Of a DNA stretch of 64,000 nt, positions 27,523-33,504 are shown in pieces (within the stretch, counting starts at the first letter, position 1; every line of letters begins with the position of its first letter). The translations under genes were made by a program, and so were the position numbers. Below the pieces are notes generated by a model that made no database searches, had not been told where the DNA came from, and saw nothing but the letters and a program-made list of their open reading frames with translations. Source of the stretch: Achromobacter sp. MYb9 (GTDB taxonomy: Bacteria > Pseudomonadota > Gammaproteobacteria > Burkholderiales > Burkholderiaceae_B); assembly GCF_002975275.1 (NCBI RefSeq), contig NZ_PCOQ01000009.1, positions 62,001-126,000 of the forward strand. The letters run 5' to 3'.

Positions 27523-28734
27523 ATGACCACCCGCCCGATTTATTTTGACTATTCGGCCACGACGCCCGTCGATCCCCGTGTCGTGGACAAGATGGTGCCC
27601 TGGTTGTACGAGAACTTCGGCAACCCGGCATCGCGCAGCCACTCGTTCGGCTGGGATTCGGAAGAAGCCGTCGAACGCGCTCGCGAGGAAGTCGCCAAGT
27701 TGGTCAACGCCGACCCGCGCGAGATCGTCTGGACGTCCGGCGCGACCGAATCCGACAACCTAGCCATCAAGGGCGCCGCGAACTTCTACGCGGAACGCGG
27801 CAAGCACATCATCACCGTCAAGACCGAGCACAAGGCAGTGCTGGATACCTGTCGCGAGCTTGAGCGCCAAGGCTTCGATGTCACGTATCTGAATGTGAAA
27901 GATGATGGCCTGATTGATCTGGACACCTTCAAGGCTGCGCTGCGCCCGGATACCGTGCTGGTGTCCGTGATGATGGTGAACAACGAAATCGGCGTGGTCC
28001 AGGACATTGAAACGCTGGGCGAGATCTGCCGTGAAAAGGGCATCATCTTCCACGTGGACGCTGCTCAGGCGACCGGCAAGGTGCAAATCGATCTGCAAAA
28101 GCTGAAAGTCGACCTGATGTCGTTCTCGGCGCACAAGACGTACGGCCCGAAGGGCATTGGCGCCTTGTATGTGCGCCGCAAGCCGCGCATCCGCATCGAA
28201 GCGCAAATGCACGGCGGTGGCCACGAACGCGGTTTCCGCTCGGGCACGCTGGCCACGCATCAAATCGTCGGCATGGGTGAAGCGTTCCGTCTGGCCCGCG
28301 AAGAAATGGGCACCGAGAACGAACGCATCCGCATGCTGCGCGACCGCCTGTGGAATGGCCTGTCGCAGATCGAAGAGGTCTACCTCAACGGCGACATGGA
28401 CCAGCGCGTTCCGCACAACCTGAATGTCAGCTTCAACTATGTCGAAGGCGAGTCCCTGATCATGGCGATCAAGGAACTGGCCGTATCCAGCGGTTCGGCC
28501 TGCACCTCGGCCAGCCTGGAGCCGTCCTACGTGCTGCGCGCGCTGGGCCGCAACGACGAGTTGGCGCACAGTTCCATCCGTTTCACCCTGGGCCGCTTCA
28601 CGACCGAAAAGGAAGTGGACTTCGCCATTGAATTGCTCAAGAGCCGAGTCGGCAAGCTGCGCGATATGTCGCCGCTTTGGGAAATGGCCAAGGAAGGCAT
28701 TGACTTGAACACCGTGCAGTGGGCCGCGCACTAA
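27523..28734 (+). CDS. iscS: Cysteine desulfurase IscS
   Basis: A 403-residue PLP enzyme that takes sulfur from cysteine and delivers it as persulfide for cluster assembly and tRNA thiolation. The N-terminus ([15 protein letters not shown]), the PLP-lysine motif [12 protein letters not shown] and the catalytic-cysteine loop [15 protein letters not shown] are intact. Length matches E. coli IscS. It is second in the isc operon, 33 bases before iscU, its scaffold partner. Confidence 0.98.
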
Positions 28735-28767
28735 GCGCCTGCACCAAGAAATACGTGGAGAAATAAC

Positions 28768-29172
28768 ATGTCTTACAGCACTAAAGTCCTGGATCACTAC
28801 GAAAACCCGCGTAACGTCGGTTCGTTCGACAAGTCGGACGAGTCGGTGGGTACCGGCATGGTCGGCGCACCGGCCTGTGGCGACGTCATGAAGCTGCAGA
28901 TCAAGGTGAATGAAGCTGGCGTGATCGAAGATGCGCGCTTCAAGACCTACGGCTGCGGTTCGGCCATCGCTTCCAGCTCGCTCGTGACCGAATGGGTCAA
29001 GGGCAAGACGCTGGATCAGGCGATGAACATCCGCAACACGCAGATCGCCGAAGAACTGGCGTTGCCGCCCGTGAAGGTCCATTGTTCCATCCTGGCCGAA
29101 GACGCGATCAAGGCCGCGGTGCAGAACTACAAAGAAAAGCATTCGGTTCCGGCCGAAGCGGTGGCAGGCTGA
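28768..29172 (+). CDS. iscU: Iron-sulfur cluster scaffold IscU
   Basis: A 134-residue scaffold on which [2Fe-2S] clusters form. Three ligand cysteines are seen in GAPACGD, YGCGSA and VHCSIL. The HscA recognition motif LPPVK is present just before the third cysteine. It receives sulfur from IscS and hands clusters on with HscA/HscB help. It ends two bases before iscA. Confidence 0.98.
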
Positions 29173-29174
29173 TC

Positions 29175-29498
29175 ATGTCCGTTACCCTGACCCAACAGGC
29201 TGCCACCCATATCGGGCGCTACTTGCAGAAGCGCGGAAAGGGTATTGGCTTGCGGCTCGGCGTTAGGACGACGGGCTGTTCCGGCATGGCCTACAAGTTG
29301 GAATACGTGGACGACTCGGCGCCGGAAGACGCCGTGTTCGAGAGCTTTGGCGTCAAGGTCTTCATCGACCCGAAGAGCCTGGCTTACCTGGACGGCACCG
29401 AGCTGGATTACGCCCGCGAAGGCCTGAACGAAGGTTTCAAGTTCCGCAACCCCAACGAAAAGGCGACCTGCGGCTGCGGCGAGTCGTTCACGGTGTAA
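29175..29498 (+). CDS. iscA: Iron-sulfur cluster assembly protein IscA
   Basis: A 107-residue A-type carrier with the three conserved cysteines in TTGCSGM and CGCGESF. It binds iron or clusters and passes them to targets, especially [4Fe-4S] proteins. The ATG at 29175 begins the family N-terminus [12 protein letters not shown]; the longer frame upstream overlaps iscU and is rejected. It lies between iscU and hscB with almost no spacing. Confidence 0.97.
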
Positions 29499-29501
29499 GT
29501 C

Positions 29502-30014
29502 TTGGCCGGAGACGACCACTTCAGCCTGTTCGGCTTGCCCGCATGCTTCGACCTGGACGCGCAAGCGTTGGAAAGCGCGTGGCGCGCAGTCGCCGCGCAA
29601 GTGCATCCCGATCGTTACGCCACGGCTAGCCCCGCGGAGCGCCGTGTGGCCATGCAGTGGGCCGCGCGCGCCAACGAGGCATACCGCGTGTTGCGGGATC
29701 CCTTGCTTCGCGCGCGCTATCTGTGCGAACAGGCGGGCATCGACTTGCAGACCGAGAGCAACACGTCCATGGACACGGCTTTCCTGATGCAGCAGATGAC
29801 CTGGCGCGAGATGCTGGACGATGCGCGCGACGACGCCGATGCCCTGACCGCCTTGCAGACGGAGTTGGAAGCGGCGCGCGTAGACATGCGTGCCACGCTG
29901 ACGCGTCTGCTGGATAACGAGCGCGACTACGCGACTGCCGGGTTGAAGGTCCGGGAATGGATGTTCGTGGAAAAGCTGGCAGAAGAGCTGGCGCACGCGC
30001 AACCCGCCGGATAG
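29502..30014 (+). CDS. hscB: J-domain co-chaperone HscB
   Basis: A 170-residue co-chaperone that brings IscU to HscA and stimulates its ATPase. The J-domain HPD motif is in AAQVHPDRYATAS near residue 32; the C-terminal helical bundle binds IscU. The only sensible start is TTG at 29502, because the iscA stop codon lies six bases upstream in the same frame and no other start precedes the conserved FSLFGLPACFDLD. Translation may be coupled to iscA termination. Confidence 0.94.
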   Translation: MAGDDHFSLFGLPACFDLDAQALESAWRAVAAQVHPDRYATASPAERRVAMQWAARANEAYRVLRDPLLRARYLCEQAGIDLQTESNTSMDTAFLMQQMTWREMLDDARDDADALTALQTELEAARVDMRATLTRLLDNERDYATAGLKVREWMFVEKLAEELAHAQPAG

Positions 30015-30086
30015 CCCCGGCCGCGTTGGGGCGCCCGTGAGGCGGGGCCCCGGATTTCGCCGCCTACTGAGCAGAAAAATACAATC

Positions 30087-31949
30087 ATGGCCTTATTGCA
30101 GATATCCGAGCCCGGCGAGTCGCCCGCGCCGCACCAGCGCAAGCTGGCGGTCGGGATTGATCTGGGCACTACCAATTCCCTGGTTGCGGCGGTGCGCAGC
30201 AGCGTCGCGGAAGTGCTGCCTGATGCAGAAGGCCTTGCCTTGCTGCCGTCGGCGGTGCGCTATTTTCCCGGCGGTAAAGTCACGACGGGCCGCGAGCCCC
30301 TGGCCCAGCAGGCCGAAGATCCGCTGAATACCGTCGTGTCCGTGAAGCGTTTCATGGGCCGTTCGCTGGACGAGGCCCGCGCCACGCGCGCGCCCTATGA
30401 ATTCGTGGATGCGCCCGGCATGGTGCGCATTCGCACGGTGCAAGGCGATCTGAGCCCGGTTGAAGTGTCGGCGCAGATCCTGGCTGTGCTGCGCCAGCGC
30501 GCCGAAGACGTCCTGGGCGACGACCTGGTAGGCGCGGTCATCACCGTACCGGCGTACTTCGACGACGCGCAACGCCAGGCGACGCGAGACGCCGCTCGCC
30601 TGGCCGGCCTGAACGTGTTGCGCTTGCTGAACGAGCCCACGGCCGCGGCGATTGCCTATGGCCTGGATCACGCATCGGAAGGCGTGTATGCCGTGTATGA
30701 CCTGGGCGGCGGCACGTTCGATATTTCCATTCTGCGACTGACCCAAGGCGTGTTCGAAGTGATTTCCACCGGCGGCGACACCGCGCTGGGTGGGGACGAC
30801 TTCGACGCGCTGATCGCGGACCATGCCGTGGCCAAGCTGGCCGCCGGCGAGTTCTCGCCGGCCGACCGCCGCGGGCTGTTGATGGCGGCGCGCGCGGCGC
30901 GTGAAGCGCTGTCGGATACCGAATCCGCCCACCTGAAGCTGGCGCTGTCGGATGGGCGCGACGTGGACCTGGTCCTGACGCGCACTGAATTTGAAACGCT
31001 GGCGCAGCCGCTGGTGGAACGCACGCTGGATTGCGCGCGCCGCGCGCTGCGCGATGCGTCGCTGAAGCCCGCCGATGTGCGTGGCGTGGTGATGGTGGGC
31101 GGCGCGACGCGCATGCCCGTCGTGCGCGCCGCCGTCGGTCGCGTGTTCGGCACGGAGCCGTTGATTGACCTGGACCCGGATCAGGTCGTGGCGCTGGGCG
31201 CCGCGCTGCAAGCCAATTTGCTGGCGGGCAACCGCGCCCCGGGCGAAGACTGGCTGCTGCTGGACGTGATCCCCTTGTCGCTGGGGCTGGAAACGATGGG
31301 CGGGCTGGTCGAGCGCGTGATTCCGCGCAACAGCACCATTCCCGTGGCCCGCGCCCAGGAATTCACGACATTCAAGGATGGCCAGACCGCCATGAGCATC
31401 CATGTGGTGCAGGGCGAGCGCGACCTGGTGGCGGATTCACGTTCGTTGGCCCGGTTCGAGCTGCGTGGCATTCCCCCGATGGTGGCGGGCGCAGCGCGCA
31501 TCCGCGTGACTTTCCAGGTGGATGCGGACGGCCTGCTGAGCGTCACGGCGCGTGAACAGAGCACGGGCATCGAGGCCGCCGTATCGGTCAAGCCGTCGTA
31601 CGGGCTGACCGACGATGAAATCGCGCAGATGCTGGCAGACAGCGTGGCGCAGGCCGACACGGACGCACGCGCCCGCATGCTGCGTGAGCAGCAAGTGGAC
31701 GCGCGCCAGTTGGTGGAGTCCGTGCAAGCGGCCCTGGCCGCCGACGGCGACCTGCTGGACGCGGAAGAACGCAAGCACGTCGACGAATGCCTGCAAGCCG
31801 CCATCGCCGCGCAATCGGCGCAAGACACGGATACCGTGAAAGACGCGGTGCAAGCGCTGTCGGCCGCGACGGACGACTTTGCCGCGCGTCGAATGGACCG
31901 CAGCATTCGTGCCGCGCTGGCGGGCCGCAAACTTGATGAGATCGCCTGA
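30087..31949 (+). CDS. hscA: Fe-S assembly Hsp70 chaperone HscA
   Basis: A 620-residue specialised Hsp70. The actin-like ATPase domain shows [26 protein letters not shown] and [11 protein letters not shown]; the substrate-binding domain follows from about residue 390. It binds the LPPVK loop of IscU and drives cluster release. It is 72 bases after hscB and 10 before fdx, in the same operon order as in E. coli. Confidence 0.97.
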
Positions 31950-31959
31950 TTAAGACGTT

Positions 31960-32301
31960 ATGCCGAAACTGACTGTATTGCCTCATCCCGATTACTGCCC
32001 CGAAGGCGCCGTGATCGAAGACGCGCCGAAGGGCGTGTCGATCTGTCGTGTGCTGCTGGACAACCATATCGACATCGAACACGCGTGCGAGCTGTCGTGC
32101 GCCTGCACGACCTGTCACGTGGTGATCAAGCAGGGCTATTCCGCGCTGGAAGACGCGACGGATGACGAAGAAGACCTGCTGGACAAGGCCTGGGGCCTGA
32201 CCCCGACGTCGCGCCTGTCATGCCAGGCGCTGGTGACGGATACCGACCTGACGGTCGAGATCCCGAAGTACACCATCAACCATGCGAAAGAGGGCCATTG
32301 A
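31960..32301 (+). CDS. fdx: Isc-type [2Fe-2S] ferredoxin
   Basis: A 113-residue adrenodoxin-type ferredoxin that supplies electrons during cluster assembly. Cluster cysteines are in CELSCACTTCHVV (C-x5-C-x2-C spacing) and LSCQALV. Its stop codon overlaps the iscX start (TGATG). Confidence 0.97.
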   Translation: MPKLTVLPHPDYCPEGAVIEDAPKGVSICRVLLDNHIDIEHACELSCACTTCHVVIKQGYSALEDATDDEEDLLDKAWGLTPTSRLSCQALVTDTDLTVEIPKYTINHAKEGH

Positions 32302-32495
32302 TGAAGTGGACCGATACCTACGAGGTTGCCGCGGCCCTGGTCGACGCGCATCCTGATGTGGACCCCAAGACGCTGCGCTTCACGCAGCTACGTGAATGGG
32401 TCATGGCTTTGCCTGGATTCAACGACGACCCCGCCCACTGTGGCGAGAAGATCCTGGAGGCCATCCAGATGGCCTGGATAGACGAAGCGGACTGA
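32301..32495 (+). CDS. iscX: IscX (YfhJ), IscS-binding regulator
   Basis: A 64-residue acidic protein of the IscX family, which binds IscS and iron and slows or tunes cluster assembly. The typical MKWTDTYEVAAALVDAHPD start and a C-terminal helix rich in Glu and Trp are seen. The ATG overlaps the fdx stop. It closes the isc operon; a terminator follows 14 bases later. Confidence 0.96.
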   Translation: MKWTDTYEVAAALVDAHPDVDPKTLRFTQLREWVMALPGFNDDPAHCGEKILEAIQMAWIDEAD

Positions 32496-32619: not shown

Positions 32620-33504
32620 ATGCCCGCTGCTCCCTTGCGCTTTGGCCTGGCCGCCAACCGGCTGCACCACGAAACCCCCGATGCCGCCTTGTTCACCTGG
32701 TTGCGCGCGTGCTCGTCCACGATACGCGAGCTGGGTGTCCAACTGCACACCGTCGGCCGCACGCATGACGCCATCGTGCGCGAGGGGATGTTGCAGGGGT
32801 ACAGCGGCCTGATCCGGTATCCCTACGGGCGCGAAGGCGGCCTCATGAAACTGGTGGCCCGCGTCACCGAAGGGCGCGACGGGCAGGCGCCGTTTGACGG
32901 CGCCATCTATTTGATTGATCCGGTGGATCCGTCGTCGATTTTCCCGGAAGCGTTGGCGTTGAAGCGGCAATGCATCACGCATGGCCGACCGTTCATTTCC
33001 ACGGTGGCCGGCGCCATCGAATGGATGGAAGTGGAACGCGTGCATGCCGGTTTGGCGCCCGACGCGTCGGTGTCGCGTCTGTTCAACTTTACCGGGCAGA
33101 CGCTGGCTATGATCGCGCACGATGCGCTCAAGGACGAGATGGTCGCGTTTGCCAGCGAACACTTCGACCTGTTGTCGCGGTTTGCCCGCCGCGTCGCGAC
33201 GGGCACCACGGGCGGCCGGCTGAACGAATTGGCGTGGTCGCGCGGGTGGCCCAAGGATACGCCGTGGGTGCATCGCTACCTGAGTGGGCCGCTGGGCGGC
33301 GATGCGCAGATTGCCGAACTGGTGCTTGAACATCAGTGCCAACGCGTGATCTTCTTTGAAGACCCGCATGTCGCGCGCCAGCACGAGGCCGATATCCAGT
33401 TGCTTGAGCGCGCTGTGCGCGTGGTGACCGAATCCGCCACTTGCGCGACGTCGCCCACGGTGGCGCGGCGCTGGGCGCAGGCGGTGGAAAAGCGCGTGAT
33501 CTGA
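32620..33504 (+). CDS. mgsA: Methylglyoxal synthase with duplicated MGS-like domain
   Basis: A 294-residue protein, twice the usual length (E. coli MgsA has 152). The C-terminal half, about residues 165-290, is a complete synthase: IAHDALKDE, VATGTTGGRL, LSGPLGGDAQI and the FFEDP...H-x2-D segment hold the equivalents of Asp20, Asp71, His98 and Asp101. It would turn dihydroxyacetone phosphate into methylglyoxal. Residues 5-140 look like a second copy of the fold (GRTHDAIV, YGREGGLMKLV, FDGAIYLIDPVDPSS), but all these acidic and histidine positions are changed, so it is probably regulatory or structural. No ribosome-binding site is obvious before ATG 32620. Confidence 0.88.
   Translation: MPAAPLRFGLAANRLHHETPDAALFTWLRACSSTIRELGVQLHTVGRTHDAIVREGMLQGYSGLIRYPYGREGGLMKLVARVTEGRDGQAPFDGAIYLIDPVDPSSIFPEALALKRQCITHGRPFISTVAGAIEWMEVERVHAGLAPDASVSRLFNFTGQTLAMIAHDALKDEMVAFASEHFDLLSRFARRVATGTTGGRLNELAWSRGWPKDTPWVHRYLSGPLGGDAQIAELVLEHQCQRVIFFEDPHVARQHEADIQLLERAVRVVTESATCATSPTVARRWAQAVEKRVI

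Follow-up and report, generated by a model that had tools for sequence, protein, structure and literature searches.

A two-domain methylglyoxal synthase of Achromobacter sp. MYb9 with a predicted second, non-classical methylglyoxal synthase fold in front of its catalytic domain

Methylglyoxal is toxic, and its synthase (MGS) must be restrained; its known regulators comprise small molecules and, for the enzyme of Bacillus subtilis, a protein, Crh. In the window analysed here, a stretch of 64,000 nucleotides of the Achromobacter sp. MYb9 genome, one gene encodes an MGS of unusual length, which raises the question of what the additional half of the protein is and what it does. The first-pass annotation had described a product of about 294 residues, twice the known enzyme, and the open reading frame, its strand and its length proved correct, the MGS chains of the PDB having 126-178 residues. 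The gene and its two halves lie as follows:

32620..33504, + strand: two-domain methylglyoxal synthase gene, 294 aa, with ATG at 32620 and stop at 33502-33504.
32635..33075, + strand: N-terminal domain of predicted MGS fold without D71 and H98 equivalents, about residues 6-152 (AF2 model, PDB matches, profile-profile E 1.3e-6).
33097..33501, + strand: putative C-terminal catalytic MGS domain, about residues 160-294 (NF003559, phmmer to 1wo8, VIA-align to 2x8w).

Relatives of the same genus have ATG at the equivalent place, the start codon being scored in each as the one nearest the expected position, and the nearest named loci belong to Achromobacter species with proteins 97-98% identical. The two-domain MGS is a real, well-conserved variant of a known enzyme. 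Such proteins are already named 'methylglyoxal synthase' by an NCBI model, and their N-terminal domain is covered by no curated model in the scans made; in the literature on methylglyoxal synthase, searched with most subscription journals out of reach, we found no description of it. Four alignments chosen from the retrieved loci were used: A1, of 36 two-domain proteins; A2, of 23 N-halves; A3, of 8 single-domain MGS; and A4, of 23 C-halves. Residue counts refer to the 109 unique two-domain sequences out of 144 frames containing both halves.

In a scan of the full-length protein, the C-half matched the NCBIfam model NF003559 (methylglyoxal synthase) with 97 bits at a cut-off of 84, the best stretch being residues 160-271; the scan also lists a second stretch for the model, its position not being displayed. 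In the same protein, the Pfam MGS match was sub-threshold (20.9 vs 24.1 bits) and that of TIGR00160 far under its cut-off (78.6 vs 146.9). The C-half shares fold and catalytic positions with MgsA (E. coli 1b93/1egh; Thermus 1wo8, 2x8w) and is 42-45% identical to the Thermus enzymes, with a phmmer E of 2.7e-21 to 1wo8 and, in the search with the full-length model, a VIA Z of 16.7 to 2x8w. The MGS residue list in PMC1877815 comprises H19, G66, D71, D91, H98 and D101, with H19, D71 and H98 given there as catalytic and D91 and D101 as serving substrate recognition, whereas PMC7843640 names D71 as the base and, as phosphate contacts, the TGTTG motif, a Lys, a Ser and a Gly. All 109 sequences keep the equivalents of H19, D20, T45, T47, T48, S65, G66, D71, D91, H98, D101 and R107 in the C-half, in agreement with the earlier statement that the catalytic positions are retained there. 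Because this conservation is complete, we infer that the C-half turns dihydroxyacetone phosphate into methylglyoxal. Unlike MgsA, the protein has a second MGS fold without D71 and H98 fused in front, and its C-half carries, ahead of the SGPLGGD loop, an insertion in which a Trp (W216) is invariant.

For the N-half, no match was displayed in the full-length Pfam, NCBIfam and phmmer PDB scans. When N-halves were scanned alone, 19 of 23 matched NF003559, the best at E 2.4e-6 and that of the Achromobacter sp. MYb9 protein at E 0.08, all far under the cut-off; none of the 23 matched Pfam MGS, and no family besides MGS was convincingly matched. By hhalign, the N profile aligned with the eight single-domain MGS at a score of 43.8 (E 1.3e-6, 26% identity, 112 columns), while 100 column-shuffled versions of A3 reached at most 17.4 and reversed A3 gave 12.2. 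Against its own C-half the profile scored 24.4 (E 0.0034), and one of 100 shuffled A4 alignments exceeded that score (28.9); therefore, the internal repeat is marginal by sequence alone. Among all PDB sequences, searched with the N profile, MGS took ranks 1-6 (E 2.4e-4, 0.017, 0.018, 0.077, 0.31 and 0.74), followed at rank 7 by the Max protein (E 1.9); rank 1 alone is significant in this search, and it is the ordering that carries weight.

The predicted structures agree with these matches. AlphaFold models were built on alignments of 36 (full length) and 23 (N-half) related sequences; in the full-length model (pLDDT 88.2, pTM 0.89), strands and helices follow one another alike in the two halves, and the N-half modelled alone reached pLDDT 88.8 and pTM 0.83. 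With the latter, Foldseek rows 1-22 were all MGS (E 1.6e-5 to 5.5e-4), and VIA-align placed twelve MGS entries on top (Z 13.4-15.0 over 118-122 residues), among them 1wo8 at Z 15.0, rmsd 2.5 and 120/122 residues. After MGS came carbamoyl phosphate synthetase (CPS; Z 10.8-11.7), then PurH/ATIC and others at Z 9.4 or below. The N-half is thus predicted to have the MGS fold across the whole domain, at about 18-25% identity to MgsA. The first-pass proposal of a second MGS fold fused to MGS is in this way borne out by the N-alone model and the N profile, both of which match MGS first; an unrelated N-terminal fold was rejected on the profile, Foldseek and VIA-align matches, and no profile hits to another family were seen. 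GT-B-like glycosyltransferases, UDP-GlcNAc epimerases and UspE also appeared in the full-length fold searches and were set aside, as the likeliest reason for these matches is the general layout with two Rossmann-like domains rather than membership of a family.

Where did this second fold come from, and how widely is it found? A domain tree covered 50 domains: the N and C domains of 18 two-domain loci, out of 142, and 14 single-domain sequences, not all of them complete. N formed one clade and C another, each with 100/100 support, and the two were separate, with branch lengths of 5.6 and 3.0 changes per column, for which the program warns of long branches. The C clade falls among single-domain MGS (fork support 88/98), and the N profile is closer to single-domain MGS than to its own C-half (E values as above). 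That N and C each appear monophyletic would fit a single fusion. As to the source of N, the duplication proposed in the first-pass annotation and recruitment are both candidates. All 144 frames matching N at E 1e-10 contain N and C together in a single frame, and among the retrieved loci there was no C-type frame above 120 bits without N.

The two-domain protein was present in 25/25 same-genus genomes checked. Among 41 relatives, 28 matched, 26 over the full length and 2 in the C-half region only. In genome samples of order, phylum and class, which overlap, the N profile found 17 of 399 order genomes after removal of one false match among 18 (G1041, L171, E 1.7e-4, whose frame we recognised by eye as presumably ThiF/MoeB-like), 11 of 398 phylum genomes, and 2 of 54 genomes in the order of G242. 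A protein search matched 17 of 369 class genomes, 6 with a two-domain protein, and NF003559 found MGS in 18 of the 369, the six two-domain genomes giving one match each. Named holders include Achromobacter, Bordetella, Alcaligenes, Pollutimonas, Advenella, Jezberella, Pseudoxanthomonas and Lysobacter, a spread that is a lower bound as 80 of 471 relatives were examined. Within Burkholderiales families and in Lysobacteraceae, two-domain proteins occur sporadically.

Mobile replicons were searched as well: 50 of 72,556 plasmid records matched, one of them two-domain, while the 36 pattern matches of a viral scan included no relative. The plasmid-borne protein (L139:3950-4882, NZ_AP029020.1), 54% identical and annotated 'methylglyoxal synthase', is encoded on an Acidovorax plasmid of 365 kb, flanked on one side by a DUF1302/DUF1329 gene pair and on the other by an IS30 transposase gene.

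In the Achromobacter sp. MYb9 genome, Pfam MGS found three MGS-fold genes, namely the two-domain gene and frames of 541 and 1089 aa, which from frame length alone we take to be purH and carB. The 26 genomes with a full-length relative had one MGS match each. A second, normal MGS that would free the two-domain protein from its enzyme role was accordingly rejected, since in the two-domain genomes checked no MGS other than the two-domain protein was matched.

Which parts of an MGS active site does the N-half still have? Three stretches bear on this question:

32656..32670, + strand: conserved stretch N13-R-L-H16-H17, close to the position of the H19/D20 loop (N13 107/109, H16 107/109, H17 101/109).
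32824..32853, + strand: Y69-G-R-E-G-G-L-M-K-L78, equivalent of the SGPLGGD71 loop in the hhalign register, with Leu75 in place of the catalytic Asp (L75 109/109).
32917..32967, + strand: D100-P-V-D-P-S-S-I-F-P-E110 to K115-R116, equivalent of D91 to H98xxD101 to R107, with Ile107 in place of H98 (D100, D103, S106, K115 and R116 109/109 each).

The equivalent of D71 is Leu75 in 109/109 sequences, and that of H98, residue 107, is Ile in 93, Val in 8, Thr in 5, Leu in 2 and Met in 1. At residue 110, the D101 equivalent, Glu stands in 107 sequences and Asp in 2. The equivalents of D91, G66 and R107, residues absent from the first-pass list, are kept in 109/109 and that of T48 in 108/109, and D100, D103, S106, K115 and R116 are each invariant. 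The H19/D20 loop has about four extra residues and its alignment is uncertain: strand ends of the model point to N13/R14 and hhalign to H17/E18, and neither register yields a His-Asp pair in the Achromobacter sp. MYb9 N-half (residue 13 is Asn in 107 sequences, Ser in 1 and His in 1). The claim that this half has lost every catalytic residue therefore stands for D71 and H98 and, in substance and with an ambiguous register, for D20; it goes too far for D101, given the Glu or Asp at that place. Of the three segment pairs first proposed, two were one residue off: in the hhalign register, VGRT faces TGTT, and YGREGGL faces SGPLGGD. With neither the D71 base nor H98, the N-half should not catalyse the MGS reaction.

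A different set of residues is maintained instead, with N13, H16, H17, R47, R66, R71, K77, D103, S105, S106, K115 and C118 near-invariant (each in 101-109 of the 109 sequences). Several of them are missing from divergent members: R47 is Gly in 3/109, and the three-domain relatives L113 and L173, described below, also lack H16. Since these members differ at conserved positions, the N site or its ligand would not be the same throughout the group.

Purifying selection acts on the N-half about as it does on the C-half. Pairwise dN/dS was 0.050 for N and 0.064 for C in 70 Achromobacter/Bordetella sequences (2270/2415 pairs, those with dS outside 0.1-1.5 being left out and some rows possibly representing the same species fetched twice); on this basis, a pseudogene-like decay was rejected. 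Conservation over the wider A1 set is slightly lower in N than in C, with a mean pairwise identity of 71% vs 75% and a mean entropy of 0.83 vs 0.71 bits. Within N, 12/31 positions of the active-site-equivalent loops are invariant in A1 vs 14/106 elsewhere (Fisher p 0.003), and mean entropy is 0.26 vs 1.00 bits (p 9e-7); in the C-half the same loops have 24/31 invariants vs 20/96 elsewhere. The loop sets were picked by us from the MGS register. Because the conservation of N is concentrated in these loops, the N-half appears to be a remodelled site with a new residue set and not a decayed copy. The term 'degenerate', used in the first-pass annotation, is at odds with both the dN/dS values and this concentration of conservation.

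The surroundings of the gene were considered for a functional lead. Upstream of it lies:

27523..32495, + strand: isc (Fe-S cluster assembly) genes iscS-iscU-iscA-hscB-hscA-fdx-iscX, names assigned by eye.

These names are presumed from the look of the sequences. Homologues of iscU, fdx or iscX occur in 60/73 named loci of at least 12 kb, and 13/73 loci, including Pseudoxanthomonas, Lysobacter, Advenella and Jezberella, are without isc linkage; this linkage follows lineage and gives no mechanism. Beyond the isc-linked loci, the neighbours differed among 7 loci picked of 80 and gave no functional lead (at one of them, L106, the wrong frame was picked). Three cysteines, Cys118, Cys240 and Cys275 (codons within 32971-33444), are conserved in 109/109, 106/109 and 105/109 sequences. 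An Fe-S or metal role, at which the upstream isc genes and the conserved cysteines hint, is unsupported, with 13 of the 73 loci lacking the linkage.

Closer parallels come from other proteins that contain an MGS fold. The MGS-like allosteric domain of CPS (CPS1 L4, E. coli CarB C-terminus), which as noted is the next-best fold match of the N-domain after MGS, at 9-12% identity, is likewise an MGS fold without MGS activity fused to an enzyme; it differs in being C-terminal and joined to an unrelated catalytic machine, whereas the N-domain stands in front of an MGS. In human CPS1, the MGS-like L4 domain is described as binding the activator NAG (PMC4655335). The IMP cyclohydrolase domain of PurH/ATIC is another MGS fold in a fused protein, at Z 7.9-9.4 and 10-16% identity to the N-domain. 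The chemistry of PurH differs from that of MGS.

By analogy with the CPS domain, the reading that we favour, at about even odds, is that the N-domain senses a small, probably phosphorylated, effector and tunes methylglyoxal synthesis by the C-domain. In such a mechanism, the C-domain would make methylglyoxal from dihydroxyacetone phosphate. The N-domain, without the D71 base and H98, would keep an anion-friendly set (Arg47, Arg66, Arg71, Lys77, Asp100, Glu110, Lys115 and Arg116) located at or close to where the active site would lie, and there it may bind the effector. Effector-bound, it could adjust how much toxic methylglyoxal the C-domain makes, much as carbamoyl phosphate synthetase is tuned by its own MGS-fold domain. 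The fold, the lost residues, the conserved site-equivalent positions, the selection and the pairing of N with C in the retrieved loci are results of computation; that the conserved N residues would line one cleft is suggested by the register, and ligand binding, the identity of the ligand and control of the C-domain are all put forward here by analogy.

Two relatives have a three-domain arrangement of an MGS-like domain, an MGS and a further C-terminal domain: L173, a distant relative (- strand frame, 665 aa, G1141), and L113:1456-3081. The third domain of L173 matches PF04198 Sugar-bind (33.6 bits, cut-off 27), which we take to be the effector domain of SorC regulators. In known SorC regulators the effector domain is joined to a DNA-binding domain. 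This SorC/DeoR effector-binding domain was found in L173 only and is absent from the Achromobacter sp. MYb9 protein. Otherwise, the L173 domain had weak PDB hits only (best E 0.063) and one NCBIfam hit, DeoR, far under its cut-off (25.6 of 420 bits); that of L113, 30% identical to it, had no convincing Pfam match. The PF04198 match may hint, as an independent pointer, at a sensor role. A wider reading, which we hold as tentative and doubtful, is that these proteins form a bifunctional or self-sensing MGS class in which the MGS active site of the front domain has been changed for a second reaction or for sugar-phosphate sensing, with a SorC-type sugar-binding domain added in one lineage as a third stacked control layer.

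Other unusual relatives were encountered. Short MGS-like proteins above the NF003559 cut-off (L123/L150 of G101, and L151 of G124) have GGE for GGD71 and DEPD for H98xxD101, and are perhaps another MGS branch without classical catalysis. At G067:C35:2999-3384 (L124, L149, L158), the MGS match is split across two adjacent frames, which indicates a frameshift or a broken gene.

The allosteric or dimer-interface domain suggested in the first-pass annotation is plausible. The conservation seen in the N-half would also suit an interface or a second catalytic site. MGS is hexameric, and the N-domains might replace half of the subunits of its oligomer in a pseudo-symmetric assembly, N only completing interfaces. 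Such a structural role is in keeping with the likeness of N and C in fold and topology and with their fusion in all retrieved loci matching N; we judge it unlikely, however, as conservation is centred on active-site-equivalent loops rich in charged and polar residues and seems to exceed what a pure interface would need.

Alternatively, the protein could be a bifunctional enzyme whose N-domain, like PurH, catalyses a different reaction on a related phosphorylated or carbonyl compound. Candidate catalytic residues are at hand in the invariant or near-invariant H16, H17, D103, S106, E110, K115 and C118, and PurH, itself an enzyme, is among the relatives that the fold search brought up. Yet the N-halves match no family besides MGS convincingly, and the neighbouring genes, which vary among the few loci examined beyond the isc-linked ones, give no metabolic hint, so that we consider a second enzymatic activity quite improbable.

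Finally, a decaying duplicate without a function of its own, which the absence of D71 and H98 equivalents from 109/109 sequences and the slightly lower conservation of N over the wide set might suggest, is contradicted by a dN/dS of about 0.05, no higher than that of the C-half, by the presence of N ahead of every retrieved C-type domain above 120 bits and by the focus of conservation on the site-equivalent loops, and is hardly credible.

The sensing reading, if true, would mean that a built-in pseudo-copy of MGS shows how a duplicated or recruited enzyme turns into a sensor, within a protein whose extra domain is hidden behind the label 'methylglyoxal synthase' in Achromobacter, Bordetella and others.
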